From: Syntrophorhabdales bacterium
GTDB taxonomy: Bacteria; Desulfobacterota; Syntrophorhabdia; Syntrophorhabdales; WCHB1-27
NCBI GenBank assembly: GCA_035541455.1
Contig: DATKNH010000006.1
Coordinates: forward strand, 1 to 33,119
DNA: 33,119 bases
Direction of reading: 5' to 3'
Position 1 is the stretch's first letter; each line of letters starts with the position of its first letter. Positions 4,101 to 28,518 of the stretch are shown piece by piece. The notes below the pieces were generated by a model, which did not search any database, was not told where the DNA came from, and was given only the letters and a program-made list of their open reading frames with translations. Made by a program: the position numbers and the translations under genes.

Positions 4101-5336
4101 GTTGAGGAGCGGACCGCTGAGCTGACCCAGGCGTATAAAAGGCTGGAAACAGAGATGACCGAGCGCGCGAAAGTGGAAGAGCAGCTCTGGCAGGCTCAGA
4201 AGATGGAGGCCATCGGCACCCTCGCCGGCGGTATCGCCCATGACTTCAACAACGTGCTCGCGGCCATTATCGGCTTCACAGAACTGGCAAAGGATAACAT
4301 CCCGGCGGACGCGGATGCCCAGCATCACCTGAACCGGATATTTCAGTCGGGCCTCAGGGGGAGAGACCTCGTCAAGCAGATCCTCGCCTTCAGCCGGAAA
4401 GCAAAAGGAGAGCGGAAGGAGCTGAGCTTTACGCCTTTGATCAACGAGACGCACGCGCTGCTCAGATCCTCCCTGCCGAGCACCATACAGATGCCCCTCC
4501 TGATCAGTACGAACGACGATCATGTGTTCGCAGATGCCACGCAGCTCCAGCAGGTCCTCATGAACCTCGCCACCAATGCTGCCGATGCCATGCGGGAGGA
4601 GGGAGGACAGCTCACGATAGCGCTCTCCTCGGTCGTCTTTCCCGAAGGCAGCGTGCTACCCGATCCCGATATGAGCCCGGGCACCTACCTTAAGCTCACG
4701 GTGAAAGATACGGGAATGGGCATGACCGAAGACGTACGACAGAGGATATTCGAGCCCTTCTTCACGACCAAGGAACTGGGAAAAGGTACGGGCATGGGCC
4801 TTGCCGTTGTCTACGGGGTCATCAAGAGTCACAATGGCGCCGTCACGGTGCAGAGTGAAGTCGGACAGGGATCAACCTTTGACGTGTTCCTGCCTCACGT
4901 GCAAAAACCCGAGGCCACAAGGGAAGAAACAAGGGCCTTCGCGTTACCCAGAGGCACCGAGCGGATACTCTTTGTCGACGACGAGGAGCTGCTCATGGAG
5001 ATGGGACAAAGTATGCTTGAGCACCTCGGGTACCAGGTGACGGTGGCCGCAAACGGCGCGGAAGCCTGGAACCTCTTTCTTGAGGATCCTTCACGCTTCG
5101 ATCTTGTCATCACGGACCAGACCATGCCGGACGTGACCGGGCTGACGCTGGCCCGGAAGATGCTCAGAGTACGGAAGGAACTGCCCATCATCCTCTGCAC
5201 GGGGTACAGCGAGATGGTGTCACCTGAAAAGGCAAAAGACGTGGGTATCTGTGCATTTGTCATGAAACCTGTGGTGAGAAAGGACCTGGCAGAGACGGTG
5301 CGCAGAGTGCTGGACGGGGCAACGGTCGGAATTTGA
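1110..5336 (+). CDS. Multi-PAS hybrid sensor histidine kinase with C-terminal receiver domain
   Basis: A 1408-residue membrane sensor kinase. Transmembrane helices lie at about 17-35 and 291-312 and flank a periplasmic dCache-type sensor (about 38-285). A HAMP domain follows (about 313-362), then five PAS domains starting near residues 374, 499, 624, 741 and 867, and a coiled coil (about 988-1035). The HisKA box GGIAHDFNN has the phospho-acceptor His at 1044. The HATPase shows an N box near 1152, DTGMGM near 1200, FEPFFTTK near 1214 and GKGTGMGL near 1224. The receiver (about 1283-1400) has its acceptor Asp at 1336 in [16 protein letters not shown] at 1095-1101 supports the ATG at 1110. No response regulator with an output domain lies nearby, so the partner is elsewhere. 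Five PAS domains behind a Cache domain suggest that several cytoplasmic signals are integrated with one external ligand. The ligand cannot be inferred. Confidence 0.95.
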
Positions 5337-5350
5337 CGTTGACGTTCCAC

Positions 5351-5391
5351 TTGCTTCCAGACGGTTGACCTGAAGCAAATGCCGTCAACCG
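5351..5391. other. Two interlocked perfect inverted repeats between convergent genes
   Basis: TTGCTTC (5351-5357) pairs with GAAGCAA (5372-5378), and CGGTTGAC (5362-5369) pairs with GTCAACCG (5384-5391). The arms alternate 1-2-1'-2', so the stems either exclude each other or form an H-type pseudoknot with loops of 4, 2 and 5 nt. The site is 15 bp past the kinase stop and 82 bp before the end of the convergent methyltransferase-like gene. It may act as a 3'-end structure for either transcript, but there is no U tract. Confidence 0.45.
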
Positions 5392-5472
5392 GAAAACATA
5401 CGCTTTATGTAGATCAAAGGGGCGTCGAGGGAGTGGTGCCACAAGCGGCGGCCCTGTTAAGCGATTACAAAG

Positions 5473-6150
5473 TCAAAAAATTCCCGGTATCAGGTGCCAA
5501 CGCACTTTGGCGCAATAGTCTGCATATCCCTGAAGGTCCCGCAGAAGTACTTTCTCCTCATTTACAATCCGGAAATAAAGGACGAGTGTGAAGAGGGGAA
5601 TGAGCAGCAATGCCCACCACGAAGCAAGCGCGAGCGGCGTACCCACAATCAGAAACAGGGCGCCGGAGTACATCGGATGCCGGATGAGTCCGTATATGCC
5701 GGTCGAGATCACCTTTTGCCCTTCTTCGACACGGACATTCGCAGCTGCATACGTGTTTACCTTTGACACGAGATAGAAGATATAGAACGAGACCGCGACG
5801 AGGGCGTCTCCGAAGATCGAGACATACCATGGCACGTTCGACCAGCCAAAACGGAAATCAAGCGGCGGCACAATGATGAGCGCACCAAAGGAAACATAGA
5901 GAAAGAACATAATTACCTTTTGCGCAGGCTCCTTTTCGTGAGAAATGCCAGCTTCAATACGTCGCCTCAGCAATGCCGGATCGTGCTTTGCTAGATACAC
6001 CGTGTATGCGAGGGAGCAAACAATAAACGTGGCAACGTATGCCCATCCCTGCCAATACGTAAGCGTCCCTGCTGGAATAAAGAGAAGAGCAAGGATGACA
6101 ATCGTCCCGATAACGGATGAGCGGATGATGTGAGGAAGAGTTACTTTCAT
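5473..6150 (-). CDS. Isoprenylcysteine carboxyl methyltransferase-like membrane protein (copy A)
   Basis: A 225-residue polytopic membrane protein of the ICMT/phospholipid-methyltransferase superfamily. Hydrophobic segments lie at about 10-30, 36-54, 78-97, 108-129 and 162-195. The S-adenosylmethionine-site signature RHPMY is at 157-161, followed by the conserved acidic pair EE at 198-199 and the family-type C-terminal LIPGIF. In relatives these motifs bind the methyl donor in the membrane. The substrate of such bacterial proteins is usually unknown, and nothing here points to prenylated proteins. The ATG at 6150 was chosen because it puts the YW pair at residues 32-33, exactly as in the paralogue immediately upstream. 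The ribosome binding site is poor. The upstream gene ends 76 bp before it, so the two are probably co-transcribed. Confidence 0.85.
   Translation of the reverse strand: MKVTLPHIIRSSVIGTIVILALLFIPAGTLTYWQGWAYVATFIVCSLAYTVYLAKHDPALLRRRIEAGISHEKEPAQKVIMFFLYVSFGALIIVPPLDFRFGWSNVPWYVSIFGDALVAVSFYIFYLVSKVNTYAAANVRVEEGQKVISTGIYGLIRHPMYSGALFLIVGTPLALASWWALLLIPLFTLVLYFRIVNEEKVLLRDLQGYADYCAKVRWHLIPGIF
5476..5517. repeat. 3'-end direct repeat shared by the two methyltransferase-like genes, copy A
   Basis: About 42 bp covering the last 14 codons match 6229-6271 with one visible mismatch, although the two genes differ widely elsewhere. The second copy is the 3' end of the gene at 6227-6901. Confidence 0.7.
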
Positions 6151-6226
6151 AATACGAAATATAATTCTTTTTAGAGTCTTGAAAAAATGTACCGTTCCGG
6201 AACCTATTTTAAACTGGCAGCTGATT

Positions 6227-6901
6227 CTAAAAAATTCCCGGTATAAGGTGCCAACGCACTTTGGCGCAATACTCCGTATAGCCGGGTAAATTTTCGGTAA
6301 GGAATTGTTCTTCATCAAACAGCCTCCAGACGAGGCCGAAGATCGCGAGGACAGAAGCGATGAGCCCCCAGTAGGAACCGAGCGCCAAGGACACTCCGAT
6401 AGAGTAAACCGCAGCGCTTGAATACATCGGATTGCGTACGATGGCGTAGGGGCCGGTGGTGATCACTCTTTGGCCAGTGGTGATCTCGACGGTCGTGGAG
6501 CCAAAAGAGTTTTCTTTGAATACCCGGTAGACCATCCAAAGACTCACTATAATCAGGAGGTCGCCGACTATGGAGAGCCATGATGGCACGTTCGACCATG
6601 CGAAACGACGGTCCAGGCCGGGAATAATGAACGCAGCGATAGCCGGAAAGCCCGTGCACAACACTATAATCTTTTGAATGAGTCGTTGCTCCGCAGTCGG
6701 GCCACCCTTTGTTCTGTTTTCGAGAAGTATCGGATCTCTTATTATAGAAAGCGTCAGAAGAACACCTGATACGGCGCCTACCCCGAGATAGACCCATGCC
6801 TGCCAATAGTTGGTCGTCCCGGCCGATACAAGCAGAGTGACGCCTATGAGGACAGAGGCCATGGCGAACCCGAACCACATTTTTGCCTTAGGATTCTTCA
6901 T
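6227..6901 (-). CDS. Isoprenylcysteine carboxyl methyltransferase-like membrane protein (copy B)
   Basis: A 224-residue paralogue of the downstream gene, by eye about 40% identical and alignable almost without gaps from residue 1 (YW at 32-33 in both). It has the same pattern of hydrophobic helices, the acidic pair EE at 197-198 and the C-terminal LIPGIF. Unlike copy A, its donor-site motif reads RNPMY (156-160): the usually conserved His is replaced by Asn, so activity or donor binding may differ. The last 14 residues are identical to copy A and the DNA there is almost identical, much closer than the rest of the gene. An upstream in-frame ATG at 6919 would add six residues. Neither start has a strong Shine-Dalgarno sequence, and alignment with copy A favours 6901. 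Confidence 0.85.
   Translation of the reverse strand: MKNPKAKMWFGFAMASVLIGVTLLVSAGTTNYWQAWVYLGVGAVSGVLLTLSIIRDPILLENRTKGGPTAEQRLIQKIIVLCTGFPAIAAFIIPGLDRRFAWSNVPSWLSIVGDLLIIVSLWMVYRVFKENSFGSTTVEITTGQRVITTGPYAIVRNPMYSSAAVYSIGVSLALGSYWGLIASVLAIFGLVWRLFDEEQFLTENLPGYTEYCAKVRWHLIPGIF
6229..6271. repeat. 3'-end direct repeat shared by the two methyltransferase-like genes, copy B
   Basis: This is the partner of the 5476-5517 repeat. Similarity stops abruptly upstream, where the codons for CAKVRWHLIPGIF give way to diverged sequence. That suggests local gene conversion or a recent recombination end-point. Confidence 0.7.
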
Positions 6902-16072: not shown

Positions 16073-17785
16073 TTACGTGCTCAACTGAGACTCAACCCAA
16101 CGGTTAATCTCTCCTTCCAGGAGAGCCAGCGGAAGCGGACCCTTGTCGAGAAGCGCGTTGTGAAAGCGGCGCAGATCAAACCGGGAGCCCAACTGCCTTT
16201 GTGCTTTTGCCCGCAATTCCTTCATCTTCAACTCCCCTATTTTGTAGGCCAGTGCCTGGCCCGGCCAGACAATGTAGCGATCCACCTCAACGGCAATATC
16301 CTGTTCTGTCTTGGCCGTGTTCTCCTGCATATAATCGATGGCCTGTTGGCGCGTCCAGCCAAACTGGTGCAGACCCGTGTCCACCACCAGTCTGCACGCT
16401 CTCCACATCTCGTACGTCAGTTGGCCGAACCTGGAATATGGGTCTGAGTAGAACCCCATGCTGGAGCCGAGACTCTCGGCGTAAAGCGCCCAGCCTTCAA
16501 TGTACGCGGTGTAGGATCCGTTGCGCCTGAAGTCGGGAAGATCGCGCAGTTCCTGAGCCCTTGCGATCTGCAGGTGATGTCCGGGCACTGCCTCGTGGAG
16601 AGTGAGCGCTTCCATTTCAAAGGTCGGGCGCATGTCGAGCTTGTACGTGTTAACCATGAAATACCCGGCCCGTGAACCATCGGCCGCCCCAGGATAGTAC
16701 TGGGCTGTTGTCTGGCTCGGCGCCTCGTAGTCGGGAAAAACCCGCACCCCATACGGTGTTCGCGGCAACTCTGCGAAAAGCTTCGGCAGCTCCGCATCGG
16801 CCCGCTTTGCAATGTCCCGGTATGCCCTGACCAGATCATCTGCACTTGTGAAATAGAAGCGCGGATCAGTGCGAAGAAAAGAGCCGAAGTCCTGCAGAGA
16901 ACCCTCGAATCCTGTCTCCCTGACAGCCGAATCCATCGCCAGCCGGATACGCCTTACCTCTTCGAGGCCTGTTTGATGGATGGCAGCGGGCGTAGCATCG
17001 CTGGTGGTATGTTCATAGACACAGTGCGCGTAATAGGCCTCGCCATCAGGAAGCGAGGAAGCAGCAACAGGACGGTCGCCGGCGGGGAGATACGTTCCGG
17101 TCACAAACTCCAGGAACTTCATGAGCGCAGGGAATACGCCATCACCGATAAGTTTGCGCGCAGCGGATCTCAGTTTTTCGCGCTCCGGCTCGGGTACGCC
17201 TTCAGACATCCGCGTAAGCGGCGCGTATAAAGCGCTCTGCTCGACATCTGTCACAAGCTGACCGCGGATCTGGTCGGGCACACCTCGGAGCGGCTCGCCC
17301 GGCTGTACCCATCCGAGCCGGATACCCTCATGGAGGAGTCCTATTGCCTGGTCGAGATACAGAGGGAATGCAGCAAGCCGCGCAAGGTACTTTCCATAAT
17401 CATCCCCCGTCATGAAAGGCGTTACTGATACCAGCTGCGGGAACATTAGCTGCGGCCCCCAGATCTGGTTGAGGATCATGACCGGAGGAAAGCGATGGGC
17501 CCGAACCGCGAGTTCCAGCTCCCAGAGAAGAAGGCTATGCGATAGCCTGTCCTCGATCGACAGGGCTGTTGTATCAACGCCGCGGACGCGCTCAAGCAGG
17601 CCGCGTTCATCTGCCTTGCGCCGCTCGACAGCATCGAGAGAAAGATCAGTGAGCCGGTCGTTGTATCTGTTGTCCCCGGTCCACGTGGAGAGTTCGGGAA
17701 ATTCCCTGAGCTGGCGTTCCCAGTACTCGCGCTGCAGCGCGTCGAACTCAACAGCTGCCTTGTTCTGCCCCTGTCCGTGGTCCAC
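16073..17785 (-). CDS. DUF885-family putative zinc metallopeptidase
   Basis: A 570-residue protein of the DUF885 family, a gluzincin-like group of predicted peptidases. The signature LHEAVPGHHLQIA (His397, Glu398, His403, His404) is the zinc-binding HExxPGHH motif. Downstream YIEGWALYAESLG carries the conserved second acidic site. No signal peptide or membrane segment is present, so it should be cytoplasmic. The start is a GTG at 17785 selected by AGGAGGA five bases upstream; the ATG at 17790 is out of frame. The length is normal for the family. Substrate unknown, presumably peptides. It leads a minus-strand group with the EamA permease, which might handle its products, but this is only inference. 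Confidence 0.9.
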   Translation of the reverse strand: MDHGQGQNKAAVEFDALQREYWERQLREFPELSTWTGDNRYNDRLTDLSLDAVERRKADERGLLERVRGVDTTALSIEDRLSHSLLLWELELAVRAHRFPPVMILNQIWGPQLMFPQLVSVTPFMTGDDYGKYLARLAAFPLYLDQAIGLLHEGIRLGWVQPGEPLRGVPDQIRGQLVTDVEQSALYAPLTRMSEGVPEPEREKLRSAARKLIGDGVFPALMKFLEFVTGTYLPAGDRPVAASSLPDGEAYYAHCVYEHTTSDATPAAIHQTGLEEVRRIRLAMDSAVRETGFEGSLQDFGSFLRTDPRFYFTSADDLVRAYRDIAKRADAELPKLFAELPRTPYGVRVFPDYEAPSQTTAQYYPGAADGSRAGYFMVNTYKLDMRPTFEMEALTLHEAVPGHHLQIARAQELRDLPDFRRNGSYTAYIEGWALYAESLGSSMGFYSDPYSRFGQLTYEMWRACRLVVDTGLHQFGWTRQQAIDYMQENTAKTEQDIAVEVDRYIVWPGQALAYKIGELKMKELRAKAQRQLGSRFDLRRFHNALLDKGPLPLALLEGEINRWVESQLST

Positions 17786-17951: not shown

Positions 17952-18758
17952 ATGAGTGTTTCAAGAAGAGACGTGATAAAAGGCGGGGGAGCAATGCTGC
18001 TCGGTCTCATGGGAGCTGGCTCTGTAGTAAAACCGGGTAAGCTTTTTGGTGCGGGCGATGCGCAGGAGAAGTCCTCCCTTGAACTACCGTGGCCCTACAA
18101 GAGGTTGAACCCTGAAGCAGCCGCTGAAGCCGGCTACTACGGCTACTATGCGGGCGCCTGTTGTTACGGAGCCTTCGACAGCATCATCGGCGAGCTTCGC
18201 AAGGAGGTAGGTCACCCCTACACCGTGATCCCGACTGCAATGATGGTGTACGGCGAGGGAGGAGTGGCAAGCGAGGGGGCGCTCTGCGGCGCGCTGAACG
18301 GTGCCGCTGCGGCAATATTTCTCGTAACCGGCGGACTGGACAAGAAGTCAAGAGAGCCTGCGTTTGCACTTATACAGGAGCTTTACAAGTGGTACGAGCA
18401 GGAAGGGCTTCCCGATTACAGGCCAAAAAAGCCTAAGTTCGATATCGTCAAGTCGGTCTCCCGTTCCACTCTCTGCCACGTTTCAGTGAGCAGATGGTGC
18501 AAGACGTCCAAGTTCAAAGCGTTCTCCAACCAGAGGTCGGAACGATGCGGGTGGCTGACAGCTTCCGTGGCCAAGCGCACAGTGGAACTACTGAACAGTT
18601 ACGCGGAGAAAACATTTAAACCTGCCCATGCGATTGCGGCCGAGGCCCAGTCGTGCAGGCAATGCCATGACCAGGGCGGGGCGATCGAGAACACACGCGG
18701 GATGATGGACTGCGGAGGTTGCCATTTTACCCCGCGGAGCAAGCATCCGAAGATATAG
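17952..18758 (+). CDS. Tat-exported C_GCAxxG_C_C family protein with two haem c motifs
   Basis: A 268-residue protein. The N-terminus SRRDVIKGG with a hydrophobic run is a twin-arginine signal, so it is exported folded. The body carries C_GCAxxG_C_C features, with a vicinal Cys70-Cys71 pair in GACCYGAF and Cys112 in LCGALNGAAAAI; family members are proposed redox proteins. The C-terminus adds two CxxCH haem c motifs, CRQCH (235-239) and CGGCH (254-258). Cytochrome c maturation occurs in the periplasm, in agreement with the Tat signal. Several more cysteines lie between the two parts. GGGGAGG precedes the ATG. Together these suggest a periplasmic electron-transfer or redox enzyme. The partner and substrate are unknown, and it appears monocistronic. 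Confidence 0.85.
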   Translation: MSVSRRDVIKGGGAMLLGLMGAGSVVKPGKLFGAGDAQEKSSLELPWPYKRLNPEAAAEAGYYGYYAGACCYGAFDSIIGELRKEVGHPYTVIPTAMMVYGEGGVASEGALCGALNGAAAAIFLVTGGLDKKSREPAFALIQELYKWYEQEGLPDYRPKKPKFDIVKSVSRSTLCHVSVSRWCKTSKFKAFSNQRSERCGWLTASVAKRTVELLNSYAEKTFKPAHAIAAEAQSCRQCHDQGGAIENTRGMMDCGGCHFTPRSKHPKI

Positions 18759-18952: not shown

Positions 18953-19375
18953 ATGAAAACATCACATGACATGATCGTAGAGATGTTTCAGCGTTCAGCC
19001 TTTGGGCTTACGTTCGAGACTGAGGATATCCTCGGCTATCGCCTGCAGAGCGAGGTGCTGCGTGCCCTCTCCATCGACCTGAAGAAGCAGACAGTTGAAT
19101 ACGAGATCACCCAGAAGGGACTGCCCACAAAACGGCGAACAGAGTACTCTCCCAACCTTAACGAATTGATAAAAAAACTGCCTCTTACCACGGATGCTTT
19201 TGACGGGAAATTCCAGGGACTGCGCATCTCCGAACACGGTGTCTCTGTCGCGAATCCGAAACAATGCGTTCCGCGCAGCCGGGAAGATGATCCGTGGGAC
19301 ATGACCAGTTATTTCGATAACACGAACACGGGAAAATTCAAAAACAAATCCGGTCTCAAATTAGCTGACGAATAA
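18953..19375 (+). CDS. Hypothetical soluble protein
   Basis: A 140-residue protein that I do not recognise. It is mixed alpha/beta in appearance, with no signal peptide or membrane segment and a single cysteine. The N-terminal half has alternating hydrophobic residues (LGYRLQSEVLRALSIDLKK, then QTVEYEITQKG). The C-terminus is polar and probably disordered (MTSYFDNTNTGKFKNKSG). Its ribosome binding site is weak, but a reasonable promoter lies at 18865-18893. It converges with the tail-tube-like gene, whose stop is 54 bp away. Coding potential is supported by length and composition only. Confidence 0.6.
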   Translation: MKTSHDMIVEMFQRSAFGLTFETEDILGYRLQSEVLRALSIDLKKQTVEYEITQKGLPTKRRTEYSPNLNELIKKLPLTTDAFDGKFQGLRISEHGVSVANPKQCVPRSREDDPWDMTSYFDNTNTGKFKNKSGLKLADE

Positions 19376-19428: not shown

Positions 19429-19932
19429 TTAGCTTACCCTCTCAAGCCCCTCGTAGACTATCTCGAACGTTTCCTGCGCAACCTCGTTACCCTTCCCTTC
19501 AAAACTCGGCGCCTGGTATTTGGCCGGCCAGGCATTGATCAACTTCCAGGCGGCGATATCGTTACCTTCCATATCGAGGCCAGTAATCGTAATGTTTCTA
19601 GGATCGACCTTTCCCTGGACGCCAGAATTGAACCATTCATAAAGGTCTTTCGACTGAGTGAGACCATACTTTAAGATCAGCGGACCGTATTTCGGTATTC
19701 CTCCCAGCTGCCTTACCTGGAGAGGATCAGCCCCTTCCCGGTATTCGATGCACTCAATTGCCGCCTCAATGCCTGACACGCAGCAGGGTCTTGTCTCTGG
19801 AAGACCATCTATCTCGACTCTGTAACGGCAATTCCTCAAAGGGTCTTTGCGTTGTAGGCTCATAAGAATTCCTCCCACGATCAGAATAACAACCACAATC
19901 ACCAACAGAAGAAGAACTAGCGGATGTCCCAT
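19429..19932 (-). CDS. T4 gp19-type tail tube homologue with N-terminal transmembrane anchor
   Basis: A 167-residue protein. Residues about 35-167 match the gp19/contractile-injection tail tube family: YRVEIDGLPE, VSGIEA...CIEYREGADP, a KYGPLILKYGLT strand, LYEWFNSGVQG, the WKLINAWPAKYQAP segment and the closing GNEVAQETFEIVYEGL. In phages and extracellular injection systems this protein stacks into the inner tube. Unusually, residues 4-25 form a strongly hydrophobic helix followed by a basic stretch, so it should be held in the inner membrane with the tube domain on one side. Four cysteines, including a Cys-Cys pair, are also atypical. No sheath, baseplate, spike or ATPase gene is in the window. 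The ribosome binding site is weak. The repeat at 19938-20139 starts within six bases of the ATG. Confidence 0.85.
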   Translation of the reverse strand: MGHPLVLLLLVIVVVILIVGGILMSLQRKDPLRNCRYRVEIDGLPETRPCCVSGIEAAIECIEYREGADPLQVRQLGGIPKYGPLILKYGLTQSKDLYEWFNSGVQGKVDPRNITITGLDMEGNDIAAWKLINAWPAKYQAPSFEGKGNEVAQETFEIVYEGLERVS

Positions 19933-20201: not shown

Positions 20202-21926
20202 TCAGTCGCAAAAGAGATTCCGGTCAACGTACTTGATATCCTTCTCGTCAAAGTAGCGCAGAGCCCACCCTGACGTCTTGTCCAGTTTCAATACCTTGTC
20301 ATTCCCCTGGCTATCGGTTTTCTTTGCCCTGAATTCAAAGTGATCCACAAGCCTCACCGCTTCTATGGCGAACACCGTTGCAATATCTGTGTCTTCAACG
20401 CATACCAGGTTATCGCCATTGCTTTCCTCACCACCCAGAGCGAGGTTGGATGAACCGAAATAAACAGCCGCCTCCGGCCTGTTAAAATCTACTACCACAA
20501 ATTTGTGGTGTATGTTGTGGGCGTTGAAGGTCTCCTCTTTGTCAAAAGGCGGGGGCAAATCTTTTACCAGATTCTTGGCATTCACCAGGATCCCCTTTTT
20601 CGAGCCCGGCTTATATAAGGAGATGTATTTGGTGGAGTCAGTAATGCCATAGGTGAACAGCCCTTCATTGTTCTGAACAGATCTCAGTGTGGGATAGACC
20701 GGGCCGCCGCTGCTCTCATCCAGAGACATGATGCAAAACAGAACCGAACTTTTTGCGCCTGTTATACTGTCCGCCACACCTTTGAGCACCTGGTTCGCAA
20801 CATCGTCAGGGTGAGGAGAAAAGGTGAACGAGATATTCGGCAGGTTCTGACCCGCGACGTCAAAGGGCTTCGCGGCATATTGCGAGTGTGCGAATGTCTT
20901 CATCTTCGCCGCGCCCCAGGATGCTTCGAATACCTGTTCGTAAAGCCCGGCTATCTCTCCGTTAGTGAAGAGCACGACGTGATTGGCGTTCACACAGAAT
21001 CCTGTTACTGAAAAGTTGGTCGATCCCGTGAGCACTTTCGTGGGCGTACCATTCTCCTTCACAATGATAACTTTATGATGGCACAATCTCGAGAACCTTC
21101 CCCGAAACATAGCTGCTGCTCCCTGTTTGGCCGTGTTGAATGTGCTCTCAAAATCCGTTTCACTCGCGTTCTGTCCGGTATGGTCAGTTGAATTGTCCAG
21201 GATAACCCTTATTCTCCCCTCTGCTGCGAGTTGGAGGCACAGCTTCCCTACGACAGGCTCATCAAAATCATACGCGAACATATCGGCACTAAGGCTTTTA
21301 TTGTTCAGCACTTCCTGCAGCAGCGCTATAGTTTTCTGGCGCGCGGTATATCCCAGCCATCCGTAGACATCCTCATAGGTGTACTTGACGCCTTCATTGG
21401 TGCAAAACACTGAGGAAGTATCAAAGAGCCAGTTCCCTGTCGGTATGAGATTGTTGTTCTCACCAAATCTGCGAACAAAGGCCTGGGATGTGAGAAATGA
21501 CCTGGTGAAGCTTATACCCACTGATCGGTCACTATACCTGTCTACGTCTATGTCTACTTCGACGGTAAGGTCCTCGTCGAGCGGCTCCAGCGCATTATTC
21601 TGTGCGCTCCAATACCTGGGTGTGACGAAATACTTGTAGAGTCCGTATGATGGATTTGTCACGTTTTGATGAAAGGTACCAGGGACGTGGATCCATCTGA
21701 ACTTCTGAAAGGGGGCTTTATCCGATTCCGTGAGTGCGCCATCACCCTCAAAGTTGATCCTGTTTACAAGAAAATAGGAATGACCTGACGGGGTTTTGTA
21801 CCTGATTGAAAAACCAACGAAGTTACTTTTCAGCAGGTTTTCTTCGATATTGAAAGCGAGGAGCGTCATGGCATCTCCCCGATACGCCTTGACCGTTACG
21901 CCATTCTTAGCGTTGCGCTCGAACAT
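20202..21926 (-). CDS. Phospholipase D-superfamily protein with one canonical and one altered HKD site
   Basis: A 574-residue protein with two PLD-like domains after a beta-rich N-terminal region (about 1-150) that I do not recognise. The second active-site motif is canonical: His473, Lys475, Asp480, with GSSN downstream. The first has His283 and Lys285 plus GSTN downstream, but Lys290 replaces the Asp. Members hydrolyse or transfer phosphodiester bonds in lipids or nucleic acids; both motifs normally build one active site around His and Lys, so activity is still possible. No signal peptide or membrane segment is present. GGAGGA before the ATG at 21926, the promoter at 21955-21982 and the protein pattern agree on the start. 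It precedes the tail-tube-like gene on the same strand. Some PLD proteins are injected anti-bacterial effectors. Confidence 0.85.
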   Translation of the reverse strand: MFERNAKNGVTVKAYRGDAMTLLAFNIEENLLKSNFVGFSIRYKTPSGHSYFLVNRINFEGDGALTESDKAPFQKFRWIHVPGTFHQNVTNPSYGLYKYFVTPRYWSAQNNALEPLDEDLTVEVDIDVDRYSDRSVGISFTRSFLTSQAFVRRFGENNNLIPTGNWLFDTSSVFCTNEGVKYTYEDVYGWLGYTARQKTIALLQEVLNNKSLSADMFAYDFDEPVVGKLCLQLAAEGRIRVILDNSTDHTGQNASETDFESTFNTAKQGAAAMFRGRFSRLCHHKVIIVKENGTPTKVLTGSTNFSVTGFCVNANHVVLFTNGEIAGLYEQVFEASWGAAKMKTFAHSQYAAKPFDVAGQNLPNISFTFSPHPDDVANQVLKGVADSITGAKSSVLFCIMSLDESSGGPVYPTLRSVQNNEGLFTYGITDSTKYISLYKPGSKKGILVNAKNLVKDLPPPFDKEETFNAHNIHHKFVVVDFNRPEAAVYFGSSNLALGGEESNGDNLVCVEDTDIATVFAIEAVRLVDHFEFRAKKTDSQGNDKVLKLDKTSGWALRYFDEKDIKYVDRNLFCD

Positions 21927-21954
21927 GTTTTTCCTCCAGGCATCCCTTTTCCCT

Positions 21955-21982
21955 AGTATAGTTGATATATGGACAAAATCAA
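21955..21982 (-). promoter_or_regulatory. Promoter of the phospholipase D-like gene
   Basis: On the minus strand TTGATT (21982-21977), a 16-bp spacer and TATACT (21960-21955) match sigma-70 boxes at 4/6 and 5/6, about 29 bp before the ATG at 21926. Confidence 0.5.
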
Positions 21983-22004
21983 GGTGCTGCATTTGACAAT
22001 TTTA

Positions 22005-25399: not shown

Positions 25400-26479
25400 A
25401 TGGCAATAACAGTCTATGTAACATCAACGGAACGATTTTCAGGAAAGACGGCCTTTTGCGTGGGCCTGCTCCGCTGGCTGAAACAGGCAGGACATACCGT
25501 TGGTTACATGAAACCTATAAGCACCTCGGCCCTTGGTACCGGCGATCAGGTAATCGACGAAGATGCGCGATTTATCAAGGCTGTTCTGGGGCTCTCTGAA
25601 CCGCTGGAAATAATGTCGCCCATTCTCTTTACCGACAAGGATGAAGAGGTCTTGCTCCGAACAACCGATCCGAGTGATTTCGAAGAACGGGTGCGCGCGG
25701 CACACGCTGTGGTCGCGGATGGAAAAGATGTGGTTATCATGGAAGGAGGAAGCAGCCTGCGTGAGGGCTGGATCATCAACCTTGCTCCTCCACGCCTCGC
25801 AGAACTTCTGGATGCCCATGTCCTGGTAGTGGTGCCCTATGCTGTCGGCCTGCACGCTGTGGATGACCTGCTGGCTGCCCGCTCCTGGCTCGCAGGAAGG
25901 CTGCTGGGGGGTGCCATAAATAGTGTTCCCAGGCACCGCATGGATTTCGTCAAAGGCGCCATAGAGCCATTTCTTAACCGCCATTCGCTTCCTGTGTTCG
26001 CCGTCGTACCTAAGGAAAAGTCCTTGTTCTCTGTGACCGTCAGCGAGTTGGCCCATGAACTGAACGGTGAAATCCTGTGCTGTACCAAGAGTATAGACGA
26101 GCTCGTGGAGAACATGGTCGTGGGTGCCATGGGCGTGGAAAGCGCGCTCTCTCACTTCCGCCGCGTGACAAAGAAAGCTGTCGTTACCGGCGGTGATCGT
26201 CCGGACATTCAGATGGCCGCCCTTGAAACATCGACGAGCTGTCTTATCCTGACGGGGGGCATGCCCCCCAATCCCCTGATTATCGGTCGTGCGGAGGACC
26301 GGAAGGTGCCGATCATCCTGACCCGGCACGACACTTTTCAGACCGTTGGCATCGCAAGTTCTTTCCTTGGCAAAACACGGTTCCATCAGGAAAAAAAGGT
26401 TCCCTATTTCGAGAAGCTGCTCGCCGGGCATATGAACTTCGACGCATTCCTCACAGCCCTGGGTATAAAGACCCACTGA
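25400..26479 (+). CDS. BioD-like/DRTGG 'phosphotransacetylase family' protein
   Basis: A 359-residue cytoplasmic protein. The N-terminal half is a dethiobiotin-synthetase-like P-loop domain (STERFSGKTAFCVGLL with Lys16, then VIMEGGSSLREGWIINL). The second half (about 215-330) is a DRTGG domain with CLILTGGMPPNPLIIGRAEDRKVPIILTRHDTF. The same two domains form the N-terminus of long bacterial phosphate acetyltransferases, where they are regulatory. The catalytic PTA domain is absent here, so acetyl transfer is unlikely. The standalone form often sits next to ADP-forming acyl-CoA synthetase genes and may regulate them or bind a nucleotide. GGAGG precedes the ATG, and the gene is surely co-transcribed with the synthetase upstream. 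Confidence 0.85.
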   Translation: MAITVYVTSTERFSGKTAFCVGLLRWLKQAGHTVGYMKPISTSALGTGDQVIDEDARFIKAVLGLSEPLEIMSPILFTDKDEEVLLRTTDPSDFEERVRAAHAVVADGKDVVIMEGGSSLREGWIINLAPPRLAELLDAHVLVVVPYAVGLHAVDDLLAARSWLAGRLLGGAINSVPRHRMDFVKGAIEPFLNRHSLPVFAVVPKEKSLFSVTVSELAHELNGEILCCTKSIDELVENMVVGAMGVESALSHFRRVTKKAVVTGGDRPDIQMAALETSTSCLILTGGMPPNPLIIGRAEDRKVPIILTRHDTFQTVGIASSFLGKTRFHQEKKVPYFEKLLAGHMNFDAFLTALGIKTH

Positions 26480-26628
26480 TGGCTGATCCTGCAACCATTC
26501 CCTGTCTGATTGCCTGCGGCAAATTCTGTTGTGGAGACGGCTGAAGTGTGGCAGACTTTACAGCCGGTGCACAGTTGCCTTCGCTATTACGGTCCTTATG
26601 TTCGCGATCTATCAGAGAGGAGGTCCGC

Positions 26629-27261
26629 ATGATTGGAAAAGTCATACTACCGATGTTAGTCTGCCTGCTGGCATTCGCCGGATGCGCAACGCCGCCGCCG
26701 GTGAAGCAGGCCATCGTCGACATTGACAAGGGCTACGCCACAAATGCAAAGATGATGGACCAGTACCGAACCCTTGTCCAGAATGTCAACGAGAGGCTCT
26801 TTTACTGGAATCGATACATAAGCCAGCGCCTCCTCCTCGACACAGCATTGCGGTCGATGACCGAGGACTACCCTGGCAATACTCCGGCCAGGGTCGACGA
26901 AAAAGCGGACCAGCTGGGACCGAAGCTCCTCGGCCTGGTGAATGAACTGAGGCTTGCCGGGCTTCCGGCGTCTAAAGGATCCAGCGGCGCCGTGATCTTT
27001 GCAGCAGGCAAACCGGATAATACCGCAGACAAAATAGCCCAGCGTCTTCCCGAAATCGTGAACCGGGTAGTGGAAAAGGTTGATGAGGATTATGTGAATC
27101 CGGCCAAAAGAGACATGACCGAATTCGATGCCTACCAGACCAATGTCTCCGCACTCCGACAAGTCAACGGAGCAATAAGGCGATACCTTGAGATAGACGT
27201 CACGGTGTCGCCGCAGGACGTGTCGGAGATTGCAGATTCCATAAGACAACTTCGCCGCTAG
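26629..27261 (+). CDS. Lipoprotein, first gene of a three-gene envelope operon
   Basis: A 210-residue lipoprotein of unknown family. The signal ends in the lipobox LAFAGC with Cys19, and the residue after it is Ala, which favours outer membrane sorting. The mature part is largely helical, with polar heptad-like stretches (DKGYATNAKMMDQYRTLVQNVNERL and DKIAQRLPEIVNRVVEKVDEDY). GAGGAGG just upstream selects the ATG at 26629; an upstream in-frame start at 26548 would bury the signal. The next gene starts 10 bp after its stop. No homology is recognised. Confidence 0.75.
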   Translation: MIGKVILPMLVCLLAFAGCATPPPVKQAIVDIDKGYATNAKMMDQYRTLVQNVNERLFYWNRYISQRLLLDTALRSMTEDYPGNTPARVDEKADQLGPKLLGLVNELRLAGLPASKGSSGAVIFAAGKPDNTADKIAQRLPEIVNRVVEKVDEDYVNPAKRDMTEFDAYQTNVSALRQVNGAIRRYLEIDVTVSPQDVSEIADSIRQLRR

Positions 27262-27271
27262 GGGGTGGCCG

Positions 27272-27967
27272 ATGAGATATTTCGTCTTGTCCTTTCTGTT
27301 GCTTTTCACCGCTTTTGGCTGCTCGTCAATCAACAGTCAATCCGTGCGCGACTTGATCCACCTGCAAACAGAGAAGATCGACCAAGCTTCCAAGAACGCT
27401 CAGACACTCACCAGTGGTACTGAAGAAGCGATTAAGAATTGGCAGAAGAGTGTGGCCTCCCTCAGCGGGGCTCTTGAAAACCAGAGAAAGATCGAAAGCG
27501 TAAACTCGCTTATCTTCTCGGCAAACCGGTCTCTTGCGACTGAAAAAGGCATTAATGCGCACGCCTCACTGTACATGATCGGCCAGGTGTACCTCAAAGA
27601 TCGCATGGGGTTTGAACAGACGGTGCTCGATCAGTTTGATCAGGACTACGGCGCTTTGAGAACATTGGCCAGGCAGATCGGCGAATCGTGGAAGGCTCTT
27701 CAAAAGACGCAACAGGCAGTCGATGATTTTTCGCAAAGATCGTCTCTCGCAAGCGTGGACACAAACCTCGTGCGCTCGCTCATAATCGATTTCAAAGGTG
27801 ACACCGCGGCAATCGACCAGGTGCTGATACGCTCCACACAGGTGAACGACGCGCTCAGGAAAGCCTCGGGGATGGGGTTACCCCGGGGAAATGAACTTTC
27901 AGGAGTGCAGGGGCTGAATGAGGATCTAATCAACCTGCTACAGCAGATCAAGACTAAGAGCCCATAA
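27272..27967 (+). CDS. Helical lipoprotein, second gene of the envelope operon
   Basis: A 231-residue lipoprotein with the lipobox TAFGC (Cys17) followed by SSIN. The mature protein is almost entirely predicted helix with coiled-coil character (about 30-180), for example QSVRDLIHLQTEKIDQASKNAQTL and FEQTVLDQFDQDYGALRTLARQIG, and has no further cysteine. A purine-rich GGGGG site precedes the ATG. It sits between another lipoprotein gene and a coiled-coil gene on the same strand, so the products probably work together. Family and function are not recognised. Confidence 0.75.
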   Translation: MRYFVLSFLLLFTAFGCSSINSQSVRDLIHLQTEKIDQASKNAQTLTSGTEEAIKNWQKSVASLSGALENQRKIESVNSLIFSANRSLATEKGINAHASLYMIGQVYLKDRMGFEQTVLDQFDQDYGALRTLARQIGESWKALQKTQQAVDDFSQRSSLASVDTNLVRSLIIDFKGDTAAIDQVLIRSTQVNDALRKASGMGLPRGNELSGVQGLNEDLINLLQQIKTKSP

Positions 27968-28005
27968 GCCGGCGGACGATAACCCTGACATTAAAGGAGA
28001 CCCAC

Positions 28006-28518
28006 ATGAGCATCGAATTCAGTTTTAAAGGTGTGAGCGACTTCATGAAACAGAACGCCGACCTTATCGATCAAATCAAGGATACCGGATCGAATCTCTC
28101 GTCTCTGGCTGACCAACTGGAAGCAAACCGCAAACAGGCAGACCAACTGTCAGCGAGTATGCAAAAGATCCCGTTCCAGATTGCCAAGGATCAGGGCATT
28201 CAGAAAAAGCAGGCCCAACTTCTGTCAGACATTGAAGCAATGAAAGCAAAAATTGATTCTTACAAAGACGATCCGGCTAGCATGGGGCTGTACCAGGCCA
28301 AACTTGGTACGCTTTACCAGCAACTTGCAGATACCTATATCCAGGATACAATAAGCAAGATAATCGTTTTCACCCAACCTGAAGTAGACGAGATTCACAA
28401 CCTGCTCGCAAATGCGACGCTAGATGCGGCTGCGCGTCAGAAGCAGGCCGCTGTGCTTCAAGCGGCGACACAAGTCGGAAAAGTGGTCTTGAAACTGCTG
28501 CTAAAGCTGACCGCCTGA
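28006..28518 (+). CDS. Coiled-coil protein without signal peptide, third gene of the envelope operon
   Basis: A 170-residue protein, mostly alpha-helical. A coiled coil runs about 15-115 (MKQNADLIDQIKDTGS, then LADQLEANRKQADQLSASMQ, then LLSDIEAMKAKIDSY), followed by a second helical part and a hydrophobic amphipathic C-terminus (VGKVVLKLLLKLTA) that might touch a membrane. It has no cysteine and no export signal, so it should stay in the cytoplasm. GGAG precedes the ATG, and it starts 38 bp after the second lipoprotein gene. Family not recognised. The adjacent lipoproteins are of similar helical make-up. Confidence 0.7.
   Translation: MSIEFSFKGVSDFMKQNADLIDQIKDTGSNLSSLADQLEANRKQADQLSASMQKIPFQIAKDQGIQKKQAQLLSDIEAMKAKIDSYKDDPASMGLYQAKLGTLYQQLADTYIQDTISKIIVFTQPEVDEIHNLLANATLDAAARQKQAAVLQAATQVGKVVLKLLLKLTA

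Follow-up and report, generated by a model that had tools for sequence, protein, structure and literature searches.

Tail-tube proteins are known from phage tails, CIS and T6SS, where they are soluble components. The described proteins closest to the one considered here are the CIS inner tubes (Cis1/Afp1/Pvc1, including AlgoCIS 7adz_1a and Anabaena All3324), and two systems in which a CIS meets a membrane also make useful comparisons. In Anabaena, a thylakoid-anchored CIS, which is a full machine, has its anchor in the fibre-like Cis13 and a baseplate extension (PMC8894136). In Streptomyces, CisA is a single-pass (bitopic) membrane protein whose cytoplasmic domain is thought to meet the CIS, and this separate membrane adaptor is encoded in the CIS cluster of a bacterium with a full CIS (PMC12237407). 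On orphan, membrane or domesticated tube proteins, the titles and abstracts of the open-access literature offered nothing on point.

Our interest is in P0001, a predicted membrane-anchored inner-tube subunit maintained by selection in a soil bacterium in which no injection machine is detected. The window comprises an entire contig of 33,119 bases, and the features of the gene itself are as follows.

19429..19932, minus strand: P0001, a membrane-anchored (as predicted) orphan CIS tube homologue of 167 aa (profiles, PDB match, AF2, Foldseek)
19432..19836, minus strand: gp19/CIS tube domain, residues 33-167 (PF06841 at 33-164; Foldseek 7adz_1a, E 7.2e-11)
19861..19932, minus strand: hydrophobic N-terminal extension, codons 1-24 (helix at residues 4-25), up to M24, where the ancestral tube began (dN/dS, codon-position counts, AF2)
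19861..19876, minus strand: GGAGG with an in-frame ATG (codon 24) 7 nt later, perhaps an internal start giving a soluble tube of 144 aa (anti-SD energy; weak)

Residues 27-167 of P0001 resemble the CIS inner tubes in fold, length and sequence (structure-alignment identity 36% with AlgoCIS 7adz_1a and 33% with Anabaena All3324); unlike them, P0001 has a predicted membrane helix and an altered F-x-E-V-S-G motif, and lacks a sheath, a gp25 or a cluster. With the Anabaena thylakoid system it would share a CIS-derived structure tied to a membrane, although there the anchor is not in the inner tube, and with CisA a bitopic layout with a cytoplasmic domain (predicted for P0001), although CisA is no tube subunit. 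A sequence-only reading had placed the gene at 19429-19932; the coordinates stand, with the correction that the open reading frame is read from the minus strand (19932→19429), since 4 stops interrupt the plus strand across the same interval.

The evidence for the tube fold is extensive. In Pfam, PF06841 (T4-like tail tube gp19) matches residues 33-164 with an E-value of 5.9e-36 and a score of 123.7 bits against a cut-off of 28.2, covering model positions 1-134 of 134, and TIGR02241 matches at 1.9e-33 (115.2 bits, cut-off 62.4). By sequence, the nearest solved structures in the PDB are the AlgoCIS tube 7adz (1.2e-21) and Anabaena All3324 (5.1e-20). An AF2 model built from 18 relatives (mean pLDDT 85) has a helix at residues 4-25 followed by the gp19 tube fold, and a Foldseek search of the PDB with this model is led by CIS tubes at a probability of 1.00, with Hcp and phage tubes after them; against 7adz_1a the E-value is 7.2e-11 and the TM-score 0.73 by target. 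P0001 is a true CIS inner-tube homologue, and the gp19 pattern proposed earlier from the letters for residues 35-167 is borne out by both profiles and by the match of its model to solved CIS tubes. It does score far below the equivalog cut-offs for the CIS1 inner tube and CIS5 tube adaptor (NF053769, 49 bits against 220; NF053770, 71.6 against 260). The four cysteines first pointed out from the sequence are present as C35, C50, C51 and C61, of which C51 is an Arg in the congener described below. The family motif reads P-C-C-V-S-G, and P0001 retains 65% of the family-conserved columns, compared with 87% in a soluble paralogue and 64-100% in CIS tubes; since the motif is altered and these columns are less well kept than in most CIS tubes, the capacity to assemble rings may have been lost.

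The extension that precedes this domain is 23 residues long and sits exactly before the methionine at which normal tubes begin; because every ordinary CIS tube in our alignment starts at the position of M24, a mis-called start was a serious worry. Under that explanation the real product would be an ordinary soluble tube made from M24, and the hydrophobic codons upstream an untranslated leader. A Shine-Dalgarno-like GGGAGGAAT lies 7 nt upstream of M24 in both species, with an anti-SD energy of -10.2 kcal/mol in each (ranking among the top 2% of ATGs across the window), whereas M1 has none or a weak one (-4.2 and +0.8 in the two species). The comparison that speaks against it is with the congener, the Syntrophobacterales bacterium Chersky.21_67 MAG (79% complete), whose gene is the only close relative of P0001 found in two genome collections; only these two species carry this exact gene. 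The ortholog is 74% identical over its whole length and has the same N-terminus, the two sharing MGHPLxLLLLxIVxxILIVGGILM, with a mean Kyte-Doolittle value for the hydrophobic segment of 3.63 in P0001 and 3.36 in the congener. Among codons 1-24, 7 differ synonymously and 4 by a conservative replacement; the changes fall 5/1/8 on codon positions 1/2/3, no stop occurs, and dN/dS is 0.10 here and 0.15 over codons 25-167. In neutral simulations with an equal number of changes, so few replacements without a stop arose in 0.4% of trials, and few replacements with hydrophobicity kept in only 0.06%. In addition, the DNA just upstream of codon 1 is unrelated between the species (30-35% identity), and the congener has an in-frame stop two codons before M1. 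From the low dN/dS, the simulations, the unconserved upstream DNA and the shared extension we conclude that the segment is translated and that selection maintains its hydrophobic character. Purifying selection acts on the helix and the tube domain alike, and P0001 is probably an integral membrane protein, with a predicted, translated helix long enough to span the membrane, so that the helix first noticed at residues 4-25 survives as a prediction backed by its hydrophobicity and its coding-sequence conservation. A mis-called start we consider unlikely. The earlier reading thus survives both conditions it had named against itself, a missing match to the tube fold and a wrongly called start.

As for the ribosome site at M24, GGAGG is found in 19 of the 46 Gly-Gly codon pairs in the contig (41%), so the site can be a by-product of VGGIL. 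We had entertained it as proof of a second start and downgraded it after this count; with GGAGG so common in such pairs, it is a lead that falls short of showing two products. Around the starts of P0001, RNA structure is ordinary (z 0.03).

Is there a machine for this subunit to serve? The host genome is 97% complete in 173 contigs, and the absence of CIS parts across it rests on family searches. Both sheath models, PF17482 and PF04984, are silent in it, although the same searches are positive in CIS-bearing relatives, and the gp25-like baseplate family PF04965 is silent too; with neither sheath nor gp25, the genome has no detectable working CIS. It does hold a second tube homologue, on contig C167, which is soluble, has no helix and is 46% identical to P0001. 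There (4462-6599) a radical-SAM gene (563 aa) is followed after 5 bases by the soluble orphan, which has a strong Shine-Dalgarno, the two forming an operon-like pair on a contig without CIS genes. The congener, for its part, has an orphan, apparently intact sheath gene (PF04984 and PF17482; contig C382, 4344-5967) directly after a nucleoside 2-deoxyribosyltransferase-like gene.

A real CIS might of course sit in the unassembled 3% of the genome, with the anchored tube as its membrane adaptor, and an assembly in 173 pieces and the presence of a sheath gene in the less complete congener leave some room for this. We nevertheless think it very improbable, given the completeness of the genome, the silence of two sheath models and gp25 together, the position of the congener's sheath gene, single and among non-CIS genes on an 8.6-kb contig, and the fact that no CIS-cluster tube recovered in our survey of the phylum carries a hydrophobic segment. 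The scattering of a second orphan tube in one species and an orphan sheath in the other could also be read as the debris of a lost CIS, with P0001 a decaying leftover and its helix an accident, and the faster loss of family-conserved residues would agree with this. The dN/dS since the species split, low for domain and helix alike, and a frame intact in both genomes tell against it, and we regard such a relic as quite improbable. Decay, mis-annotation and a hidden CIS are all less likely than a tube subunit put to use by its host.

The survey, which covered one phylum and scored hydrophobic segments by Kyte-Doolittle, found a PF06841 protein in 30 of 395 genomes drawn. In other genomes, the five neighbourhoods inspected (L028-L032) have their tubes within CIS clusters. 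Eight tube-bearing genomes lack a sheath by either model (the host, G070, G079, G099, G101, G102, G247 and G386, the last only 82% complete), and six of these eight have an orphan tube-fold protein with a hydrophobic N-terminus, as does only the congener among sheath-bearing genomes (Fisher p 2.5e-4, for a label chosen after the data had been seen). The premise that tube proteins are soluble is therefore correct but incomplete, since hydrophobic N-termini also occur on orphan tubes in other sheath-less genomes of the phylum. Besides P0001, these proteins are encoded as follows.

L063, 7372-8061, minus strand: orphan gp19-fold protein, sheath-less genome
L064, 9661-10269, minus strand: orphan gp19-fold protein, sheath-less genome
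L065, 1419-2498, plus strand: orphan gp19-fold protein, sheath-less genome
L066, 9558-10166, plus strand: orphan gp19-fold protein, sheath-less genome
L067, 9354-9965, plus strand: orphan gp19-fold protein, sheath-less genome

The proteins of these five genomes (G070, G079, G101, G102 and G247), whose N-termini are signal-peptide-like or TM-like, are like P0001 in combining a lone tube fold, a sheath-less genome and a hydrophobic N-terminus, and unlike it in belonging to other tube lineages and in their mostly charged n-regions, which would probably place their tube-fold domains outside the cytoplasm; since they probably face outward, they need not share the job of P0001. In a tree built from 41 tube domains, about 5 changes are required to account for the labelled proteins, at least 2 of them forced by well-supported branches, and the AU test rejects a single clade (p 7.9e-7, though long branches call for caution); P0001 and its ortholog fall nearest the CIS tube of G195 and not the host's own second copy. 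As the labelled proteins do not form a single clade, the gain of membrane or export segments by orphan tube genes seems to have happened on more than one occasion, and we read the pattern as CIS tube subunits having been domesticated recurrently at the envelope. If this is true, the annotation 'phage tail protein' would conceal a class of proteins that serve the host envelope. Searches at class level around G070 and G247 added no further members. Among individual loci, the L064 gene has a multihaem cytochrome as a neighbour and a secretin-like gene 6 kb away, the L065 protein contains two PF06841 stretches (Pfam), and sheath-less G099 has a soluble orphan tube homologue (L069, 8840-9361) beside a peptidoglycan-binding/peptidase-like gene.

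How P0001 might lie in the membrane is suggested by its charges: no Arg or Lys precedes the helix, and the first 15 residues counted from M24 contain five in either species, so that by the positive-inside rule the tube domain is predicted to face the cytoplasm. The same basic residues also occur in soluble tubes, and so were not necessarily selected for topology. We propose, with moderate confidence, that P0001 is a CIS tube subunit domesticated for host use, in which the N-terminal helix would hold the protein at the inner membrane, its tube domain on the cytoplasmic side, and that the anchored subunits may keep the self-association of the tube and form a ring or short stack of rings working as a fixed membrane scaffold or platform; ring formation and role are guesses. 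Translation from M24 might, again as a guess, add soluble subunits to the anchored ones. A bolder version, which we offer tentatively and with considerable doubt, is that CIS-less bacteria have repeatedly made the tube subunit an envelope protein, and that in this genus anchored and internal-start soluble subunits form a fixed tube-like ring at the inner membrane, on its cytoplasmic side, which would be a new cellular structure assembled from parts of phage tails. No pathway is indicated, since conservation of partner genes goes no further than loose synteny. Of three earlier suggestions, a pore is at most a conceivable role; a docking ring finds no support, because without sheath and gp25 the host has no CIS of its own for it to serve, and a receptor for tail-like particles arriving from outside is unlikely for a domain predicted to be cytoplasmic.

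A role in immunity deserves to be weighed too. An anchored subunit could act as a decoy, co-assembling in the cytoplasm with the tubes of an invading phage or CIS and pinning or poisoning them, and both a tube domain predicted to lie where tails assemble and the orphan state of its gene, in a host that lacks a CIS, would suit this. The gene, however, has no defence-system match and lies in no defence island, and phage tubes in the collections resemble its product only distantly: P0001 has no close relatives in viral contigs, and its phage matches are 5 distant Streptomyces phage tubes with at most 26% identity. Among plasmids there are matches in 80 records, and in the 20 listed the alignment begins at residue 24 or later, none reaching the helix. 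The one neighbour of possible relevance is the following.

20202-21992, minus strand: PLD-like protein of 596 aa with two HKD-like motifs and an additional N-terminal domain (partial DrmC (DISARM) match, 2e-11)

Its match to DrmC is only partial, and the congener's 490 nt upstream hold no PLD gene; we judge the decoy decidedly unlikely. An operon link to this gene, 269 nt upstream of P0001, was rejected, the corresponding DNA of the congener being unrelated.

The remaining neighbours speak to the age of the locus, and three of them recur in the congener.

16073..17785, minus strand: DUF885 peptidase-like gene, kept in the congener at L004:5801-7603 (PF05960, 1e-170)
17952..18758, plus strand: split-Soret cytochrome c-like protein, kept in the congener at L004:4886-5692 (NF047622, 2.6e-62, under the curated cut-off)
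18953..19375, plus strand: 140-aa gene, convergent neighbour, with a homologue near the congener's tube gene (no family match)

In the congener these three lie close to the tube gene, some 3 kb of other genes intervening, which points to an old chromosomal place rather than a recent phage insertion. Together with these and the two-domain PLD-like gene, the 10 kb on either side contain genes for a molybdopterin oxidoreductase, an FMN oxidoreductase, an EamA transporter, a TctC receptor, an acyl-CoA synthetase-like protein and a DRTGG/AAA_26 protein. These flanking genes are of metabolic or other unrelated kinds. Profile searches found no sheath, baseplate or spike among the genes scanned across the whole 33-kb contig, which extends what had been said of 10 kb; the parallel statement about AAA genes holds for CIS AAA proteins but not for AAA domains as such, an AAA_26 domain being present at 25400-26476 in the DRTGG protein, which is of phosphotransacetylase type. 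Beyond it, at 26548-28518 on the plus strand, are three successive genes without a Pfam match, the first two lipoprotein-like and the third weakly matched by hemolysin and tape-measure families of PHROG.
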